In this document: positions 14,690 to 17,600 of the stretch, one piece after another
How positions within the stretch are numbered: position 1 is the first letter of the stretch
How the letters are laid out: each line of letters starts with the position of its first letter
DNA from: Mugil cephalus
Lineage: Eukaryota > Chordata > Actinopteri > Mugiliformes > Mugilidae
Reading direction: 5' to 3'
Assembly (NCBI RefSeq): GCF_022458985.1
Contig: NC_061786.1
Span: 5,918,001 to 5,982,000 of the forward strand
Length of the DNA: 64,000 nt
The notes under the pieces: generated by a model
The model's input: only the letters and a program-made list of their open reading frames with translations
Databases searched by the model: none
What the model was told of the DNA's origin: nothing
Made by a program: the position numbers and the translations under genes

Positions 14690-17600
14690 ATGGCCACAGC
14701 CGGTAAGGTAGGTACATGACTCATTTTGGGAGTACCCATATATATACACCATTTGTCTTACGCACAGTGGGAAGTTTTAGTCCATTTTCCAGACTATTGT
14801 GTAGTCAAATATCAGAAAACTATGCACCAAACCATGCATTAATATGACTTGGAAGTGATTTTGTGCTTATTTAAGTTCAACAGTTGAAGTGTGGGATTCA
14901 TTGAATGCTGCATGTAAGTGTTTCAGTGTCCTTTTGTGGAACCTTTGCACATGCACGTTTATTCAACTTGCCAACTCAGTGTTTTTACTTGTACTGCAAT
15001 AAAACTACAACAATAAAATGACTCTGCAAAATACCTGATGTCCTCTTATGACTTGGTGCATAGTTTGAAACTGTCCGTATCCAGAGAGTTTTGCGCAACT
15101 GTGGATCTTGGCAAATGCGAAGGACTGGTTGGCCAAAAAAGATAACGAGAGAGGCCCAAGAACTCCAAGCAGATAATAAAAACGTTACCAGACCAGGAGC
15201 AGCTGTGTCTGAGACTCTAAATATGTTTTACTCAATGTTTTGCTGCGTTACGCATTTGTCAATTGGAACTTTCTGTACAACATGCTGAAAATACAGCATC
15301 AGCATAACAATATGTTCAGATTACACAATTTGCTTGAAATTGGATGATTGGAGTGTTCCAGGAAATTGTTACAGCACCTTCCTAGAAACCCATTGAAGTA
15401 TTGTTAAATGCATTAGCACCCAAAACTGTGCCATTTCATGTTGCCTCTCTAGGTCATCAAGTGTAAGGCAGCAGTGGCCTGGGAGCCCAACAAGCCTTTG
15501 GTGATCGAGGAGATCGAGGTGGCGCCTCCTCAGGCCAATGAGATCCGCATCAAGGTGAGAGACGATGTCCACAATGTCTGTGAAGGTTCTCAGTGGTCCA
15601 GGTCAGGTCATAGTCTATCTGAAGTCCTGGAGCATCTACTTGAATGAGTGGCGAACAGCTCCAAAAAAAAACTCCACCGGTCTTTGTTTTCATCCTTTAT
15701 TTTTTTTGTGAAAGAATGTAGTTTGTAGAATGTAGAAGCTACAGGGTCCCACCAACCAGAAGGTGTAGTGACACTGTTAAATTAAACTGAAATTGAAGAG
15801 TAACCACACCAACACCAGACATTTTGGTTGGATTTTCTCGACCTAACCGAAGCAAATGAGCAAATGATCCGGGGCTCGATCTTAGTGATGCATAAAAACC
15901 TTTATTCTAATTTTTTGCCAGCTTCTACTGATTTTCTGAGAAGACGTCACAAGTTTTACCACCTGTAGCTAGCTCACTAAAAAGGCTAACGCTCACTCAA
16001 TGTCATAAGCAGGATCTTATGGCTATGTTCTCCTCATTTCAAGAGTGCCTACATGCACAGTGGTTACAAGCTAAGTTAAGGATTGACCCAGGTGTAACCC
16101 CCTACATTTGTTTTCCAAAAAACAGTAGCCAATATTCTCTTATGAAAAATAAAGTAAGTTGTCTTCTGGGAAGATGGTGGCCACTGGGGTGTGCCACACA
16201 GACCTGTACCACCTGTTTGAGAGTATGCATAAAGACGGCTTCCCGGCAGTCCTGGGCCATGAGGGAGCTGGCATAGTAGAGAGCGTCGGCCCTGGCGTCA
16301 CTGAATTTCAGCCAGGTCAGTCAAAGCTTACAGGCATGTCATTAGTTCAGCGGCTTGAAATGTCCTCTTTCATATTTGTTGTTTTGGAAGTCATTTGTAA
16401 TGTCTTTGAAATGCAGGAAACAAGGTTATACCTTTGTTCATCTCCCAGTGCGGAGAATGCCGCTTCTGTAAGAGTCCCAAGACCAACCAGTGTGAAAAAG
16501 GATGGTGAGCTCATCTTTTTCTTCTCCTCTTTTGATTTCATGCATACAAGATGTGTTCATAAGGACAGAGACTCGTTCAGTGTTGCATTTAAATTTGCTG
16601 CCAGATGGACAAGTATGTCATAGTGCTCATTATCCCACATCAAACAGCAATACATGGACTGGACCTTTGTTTTTGATTTTGCTCTCTCAGTGTAATACAT
16701 GTTCTTTCAGGGCTGCTGCTCATATAGGAGAGATGGCATTAGCTGACTCCAGGTTTACCTGTAAGGGCAAGAAGGTGCTGCAGTTTATGGGAACCAGCAC
16801 CTTCTCTGAGTACACTGTGATGAACCAGATAGCTGTGGCTAAGATCGACCCTGCTGCTCCTCTGGACAAGGTCTGCCTCCTCGGCTGTGGCATCTGCACC
16901 GGATATGGAGCAGCAGTTAATACTGCTAAGGTACGTATGTTTGATGGTTGGTGATAGCCCAAATGTTTTGCCTAAGTGTTAATGCTGCTCCAAAATGTTC
17001 CCACTGTGCCAATTATCTGTTACGTCGGACATCTTACATCTTGTAGTTGCACAGTAGCCAGGGATGGTGTTCATTAGTGTCTGAGTAGTAAAGAGTCCAC
17101 TGTCTTTAATTTTAGGTGGAACCAGGCTCCACGTGTGCTGTGTTTGGCCTGGGAGCTGTGGGTTTGGCTGCAGTCATGGGCTGCAAGTCTGCAGGAGCTA
17201 AGAGGATCATTGCTGTTGACATCAATCCAGAGAAGTTTGAGAAGGCCAAAGTGTTTGGTGCAACCGACTTCGTGAACCCCAAAGATCACAATAAATCCAT
17301 TGACAAGGTGCTGTCTGACATGACCAACGGAGGAGTGGACTACTCCCTGGAATGTACTGGCAATGTGGCAGTCATGGTGAGGCAGATCACACGCAAAGAC
17401 TTAATAGAAATATAGAAGATCGTTGACTTTGTGCCCTTTCTCCATCCAGCGCAGTGCCTTGGAGTCTTGTGTGAAAGGTTGGGGCGTCAGCGTGATTGTT
17501 GGATGGACAGACATGAACGATTTTGCTGCCCGACCCATTCAGCTCATCAGTGGACGCACATGGAAGGGATCCCTGTTTGGAGGTGAGACAAATCTAAACA

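Follow-up and report, generated by a model that had tools for sequence, protein, structure and literature searches.

Many gene conversions have been described among the class I ADH1 paralogs of primates (Carrigan et al. 2012, PMC3409193), and exon 6 is an exception in macaque ADH1, with raised synonymous similarity. In teleosts, Yang et al. (2023, PMC10503786) attribute to interlocus gene conversion a median of 7-8% of post-duplication codon substitutions in 164 duplicated genes. As to the substrate of such events, Mansai et al. (2011, PMC3924818) cite a yeast standard of about 200 bp for efficient pairing and place conversion mainly above 80% identity. Among the titles and abstract openings listed by our searches of the open-licence literature, none concerns conversion among fish adh genes, which does not imply its absence from print.

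Here we analyzed a 64,000-bp window (contig C17, positions 5918001-5982000) of an assembly of 634.8 Mb in 24 contigs. Two genes in this window, copies A and B, share a nearly identical stretch that includes a whole intron, and our comparisons indicate that it very probably arose by interlocus gene conversion, A and B being two members of a tandem set of four class I-like adh genes.

The adh gene cluster

The forward strand carries five complete ADH genes in head-to-tail order, each with nine exons, and in the spliced models all frames are open and all introns are bounded by GT/AG:

14690..18193, + strand: adh copy A; nine exons, 378 aa, class I-like; spliced model with GT/AG at 8/8 introns
19337..23282, + strand: adh copy B; nine exons, 377 aa; spliced model; Pfam ADH_N and ADH_zinc_N
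30271..33584, + strand: adh copy C; nine exons, 378 aa, class I-like; spliced model
36130..40560, + strand: adh copy D; nine exons, 378 aa, class I-like; spliced model
43408..48067, + strand: gene E; class III ADH, adh5-like, 376 aa; spliced model; used as the comparison gene

Judged from their sequences, copies A to D are class I-like, medium-chain ADH genes of the fish adh8 type, an assignment based on the nine-exon models of the four copies and on a search for the closest structure with copy A. Among 207 PDB matches to copy A the top one was 1cdo (E 3.7e-215; labeled alcohol dehydrogenase in the table), which we take to be the cod liver ADH; the four copies are presumably of the kind named adh8 in fish. 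This match and the gene content are the grounds for regarding the genome as fish-like. The Pfam domains ADH_N and ADH_zinc_N were also found in copy A. For gene E, all eight PDB matches at E<=1e-170 were class III (class-3) ADH or glutathione-dependent formaldehyde dehydrogenase. The longest exon of these genes is exon 6, with 261 bp.

Several other features were observed around the genes. A further adh copy appears as a relic at 25581-26600 of the window; its exon 1 (25581) is degraded and its exon 2, from 26502, contains an in-frame stop. A tblastn search with copy A gave no convincing later exons beside it. Between copies B and C, a tRNA-Gln (anticodon ttg) was found at 28344-28416 (+) by both Rfam and ARAGORN, as either a gene or a tRNA-derived repeat. 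An exon-like frame at 1758-2093 (+) matches aminotransferase class I/II and is presumably serine palmitoyltransferase-like. Beyond the adh genes, matches to Peptidase_M24 and zf-C6H2 on the reverse strand point to a methionine aminopeptidase 1-like gene, and close to it lies a DDE transposase fragment (Pfam DDE_3; 54740-54970, +) that we assume to be Tc1-like. METAP1 is named in a figure legend on the neighborhoods of ADH genes (PMC4028059).

A nearly identical tract containing intron 5 of copies A and B

The tract shared by copies A and B and its partner have the following extent:

16901..17207, + strand: probable conversion tract, copy A; covers 30 bp of exon 5, the whole of intron 5 (16931-17115) and 92 bp of exon 6
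22199..22505, + strand: partner tract in copy B; intron 5 at 22229-22413

The initial annotation had reported a single mismatch between these two stretches, which our recount reproduced exactly: 306 of 307 positions are identical, and the sole mismatch is 17027 G versus 22325 A. As also described there, the tract runs from the end of exon 5 through the entire intron 5, 185 bp long in both genes, into the start of exon 6. By part, identity is 30/30 in exon 5, 184/185 in intron 5 and 92/92 in exon 6, so that it is raised at neutral sites as well. The mismatch falls in a CpG of copy A and is a CpG-to-CpA difference, a type that changes fast.

The borders are less simple. The 307-bp core stands, whereas the end at 17229 originally given would add a second mismatch (17208 C versus 22506 T) and yields 327/329; the mismatches that border the core are 16900 on the left and 17208, followed by 17230, on the right. 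The sharp fall in identity expected at the borders is abrupt but moderate within the exons, with 144/156 identical positions at 16745-16900 and 125/147 at 17230-17376, and the large drop is found in the other introns. When the 146 A-B mismatches were shuffled over the 1288 gap-free aligned bases of exons 1-8 and intron 5, none of 20000 permutations produced 307 bases in a row with one mismatch or none, and the longest stretch of this kind was 129 bases. A GENECONV-style test of A against B, applied to the sites polymorphic among the four coding sequences and thus blind to introns and to any block identical in all four copies, found no signal: the longest run, which lies in exon 5, was six sites (simulated P 0.86 with all sites and 0.41 with silent sites only). 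Since the exon 6 block is monomorphic in the four copies and the introns are excluded from this test, the case for an A-B exchange is carried by intron 5 together with the final 30 bp of exon 5.

Divergence of copies A and B outside the tract

The remaining introns of A and B were said not to align simply, and this was borne out: these seven introns gave no forward-strand alignment at E<=1e-3, save at two short 3' ends, 58 bp long in intron 7 (81% identity) and 31 bp long in intron 8 (84%). Identity is therefore far from uniformly high over the introns, most of which cannot be aligned. The many synonymous differences noted in exon 3 were likewise found (19 of about 34 sites). Exon by exon, the synonymous divergence between A and B is as follows: exon 2, 0.26; exon 3, 1.06; exon 4, 0.69; exon 7, 0.37; exon 8, 0.56. 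For exons 5 and 6, with the tract counted, the values are 0.22 and 0.16, and overall identity there reaches 86% and 91%, respectively. Pooled over exons 2-4, 7 and 8, synonymous divergence amounts to about 0.55 per site, the counts behind this figure being rounded from the per-exon values. In the tract, one difference in about 218 neutral sites corresponds to 0.0046 per site (95% limits 0.0001-0.026), that is, 0.8% of the A-B synonymous background, with an upper bound of 4.6%. If rates between 1e-9 and 5e-9 per site per year are taken, which are assumptions and not measurements, the exchange would by point estimate be 2.3 to 0.46 million years old, with 95% limits across these rates extending from about 0.01 to 12.8 million years.

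A search of the assembly with the tract of copy A gave eight matches, of which only two, A itself and B, span the entire intron; such match counts are lower bounds for repeats and large families. The others hit exons of C, of D (twice), of E and of two genes on another contig, C5. One of the two D matches enters intron 5 by 25 bp at 84%, and the exon 6 matches of C and D start a few bases before the exon. Intron 5 is 359 bp long in C and 480 bp in D, and both sequences differ from that of A and B. Within the window, intron 5 matched only itself, its counterpart in B and two 13-base words at chance level.

The genes on contig C5 (3.337-3.357 Mb) form a second ADH locus, in which a class III-like gene (G) and a divergent ADH gene (H) lie in opposite orientation. 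In exon 6, G is identical to copies A to D at 193-198 of 261 positions and E at 183-186 of 261. Intron 5 of A and B was absent from G and H, where the best match was 21-22 bases long (E 0.12 or weaker). Between G and H themselves, a piece of exon 2 is 85% identical over 111 bases and the other aligned pieces 71-76%; this likeness perhaps stems from an older exchange limited to the exon. An exact scan of viral contigs with the exon 6 pattern gave no matches.

A block identical in all four copies

The coding alignment of copies A to D revealed that part of the tract is common to all of them:

16925-16930 and 17116-17207, + strand: 98 coding bases identical in the four copies (intron 5 not counted)
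within 22223-22505 (B), 32334-32790 (C) and 38329-38906 (D), + strand: the same block in the other copies

A 98-base run identical in the four copies did not occur in any of 20000 permutations, in which the longest run was 50. All 32 codons of the block are free of silent variation, compared with 97 of 260 same-residue codons that vary overall, and none of its 22 fourfold codons varies, compared with 45 of 131 overall. These counts concern a block picked after it had been seen; a scan for the longest run of same-residue codons without silent change found 34 codons, again reached in 0 of 20000 permutations (longest 28). Against gene E, 16 of 25 same-residue codons of the exon 6 block differ silently, so the DNA of this block has not been frozen over the distance to E. 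The signal specific to A and B accordingly lies in intron 5 and the end of exon 5, and the exon 6 part (17116-17207), which is shared by A to D, carries none; in this respect the initial annotation is corrected. The consequence of the tract for the protein is probably small, because the coenzyme-binding residues encoded by its exon 6 part do not differ among the four copies.

The wider mosaic of the four copies

The four adh genes are mosaics, and the A-B tract lies within a wider mosaic of all four copies, which the initial annotation had missed. A second exchange tract joins A with D:

17423..17593 (A) and 40018-40188 (D), + strand: second exchange tract; last 27 bp of intron 6, exon 7 and first 11 bp of intron 7

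Identity between A and D is 25/27 at the end of intron 6, 130/133 in exon 7 and 11/11 at the start of intron 7, after which it falls to 11/17. A run of 17 A-D sites in exon 7 was not equaled in 10000 shuffles (uncorrected for the six pairs), and with silent sites only the P value was 0.069. For a segment selected after viewing the identity profile, the 3' part of exon 6 with exon 7, the grouping AD|BC was favored (AU p 0.003 against AB|CD and 0.0001 against AC|BD). The combined 679 bp of exons 1-4, of exon 5 up to the tract and of exon 8 favored AB|CD (AU p 0.96; 0.018 for AC|BD and 0.055 for AD|BC), while exons 1-4, exon 5 and exon 8 taken singly did not reject AD|BC (AU p 0.28, 0.33 and 0.29). 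In line with this, AD|BC is supported by 15 of the 19 informative sites of exons 6-7, compared with 10 of the 36 elsewhere (Fisher p 0.0005).

In exon 7, D is 97.7% identical to A and 89.5% to B, while C is 78-81% identical to each of the other three. This pattern suggests that D was the recipient in the A-D exchange. Intron 6 of D (39076-40044) is 969 bp long, compared with 73 bp in A, with its final 27 bp matching A as given above; given the different sizes and matching ends, an insertion in D or a loss in A would have occurred inside or beside the exchanged stretch.

In exon 5, a run of 13 polymorphic sites shared by A and C gave a simulated P of 0.0014 (uncorrected), but the silent sites lent no support (P 0.98); it was therefore dropped as a demonstrated conversion, and the signal may reflect selection at the protein level, since the silent sites do not share it. 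Synonymous divergence in exon 2 is also low in some pairs (0.09 for A-D and 0.14 for B-D). Among the exons compared with gene E, from which exon 7 was excluded, exons 6 and 2 are the nearest to it (70-73%).

Origin of the A-B tract

A recent exchange between A and B remains the best reading of the tract, because a nearly identical intron sits within two genes that can hardly be aligned in their other introns and are strongly diverged at synonymous sites of exons 3 and 4; of the two options in the initial annotation, a single crossover is disfavored. Unequal crossover can indeed act on tandem copies of like orientation at a distance of 5.3 kb, and the cluster contains a relic adh copy at 25.6-26.6 kb. 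However, a reciprocal exchange or unequal crossover is very unlikely to have produced the shared stretch, since a single crossover would leave one flank equally recent, yet both are diverged (the flanking exon counts above, with unalignable introns next to them), and two close crossovers would be required.

It is about as improbable that purifying selection on a functional element in intron 5, whether an RNA gene or a splicing or regulatory element, maintains the identity. In its favor, A and B show unusual likeness in the intron and the exon beside it, and the start of exon 6 is the same in 4/4 copies, but intron 5 of C and of D are different sequences and the exon 6 block has changed silently relative to E. 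Moreover, no Rfam family was found in the tract at the gathering score, the sole hit within 14.0-48.5 kb being the tRNA at 28344. Somewhat less remote, yet still unlikely, is an assembly artefact in which gap filling or polishing pasted the exon 5-exon 6 stretch of one copy into the other. Any long read would exceed the tract in length, and a local consensus error is possible in principle; on the other hand, no N is present in the window or in the two adjoining 10-kb stretches, and the 634.8 Mb of the assembly lie in 24 contigs. Polishing alters single bases and would hardly be expected to swap a whole intron for an unrelated one, and the internal mismatch, together with the mismatches right at both borders, is unlike a pasted block.

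We thus favor gene conversion, and the following course may be envisaged. A and B would be old tandem copies, in one of which a strand break was repaired from the neighbor 5.3 kb away, the two having paired in the homologous exons 5 and 6 that flank intron 5. At least 16901-17207 (or 22199-22505) would have been overwritten, and an otherwise unrelated intron 5 carried along. The exchange was presumably non-reciprocal, and either A or B may have been the donor; comparing the end of exon 5 and the start of exon 6 with C, D, E and the contig C5 gene G gave nothing decisive for polarity, and none of these four genes carries the intron 5 of A and B. The A-B tract would then be the latest visible step in a repeated exon-scale exchange among the four copies. 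Its setting is ordinary concerted evolution, of which it represents a further instance.

A more speculative and rather doubtful idea is that the end of exon 5 and the start of exon 6 form a recurrent landing site of conversion in vertebrate ADH genes, for which we propose that exon 6, being the longest exon, supplies the pairing length after the introns have drifted apart. The idea draws on the homogenization of this region in the four fish-like copies and, independently, on the exceptional exon 6 of macaque ADH1. The tract offers a clean natural example of an otherwise unalignable intron moved by conversion between two anchoring exons, and it could be used to study the homology length that such repair needs. 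In addition, trees and orthology calls based on exons can mislead in such adh clusters, because within exons 5-7 some parts reflect exchange and not descent.

Comparison with known systems

The closest parallel is the primate ADH1 cluster, in which tandem copies with mosaic histories lie between ADH5 and ADH4 (PMC3409193), and in which an intron 5 event between human ADH1B and ADH1C and events covering intron 5/6 and exon 6 between macaque copies are described. The same source shows a difference, as the eight introns of the primate genes could be aligned and concatenated into some 12,500 sites. In the present cluster, most introns of A to D no longer align, so that one nearly identical intron stands out, and the copies are a separate, fish-like set. 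With the teleost study (PMC10503786) our results share the homogenization of paralogs in teleosts; according to its abstract, that study treats codon substitutions statistically, whereas here a single intron-bearing tract is resolved in a tandem array.
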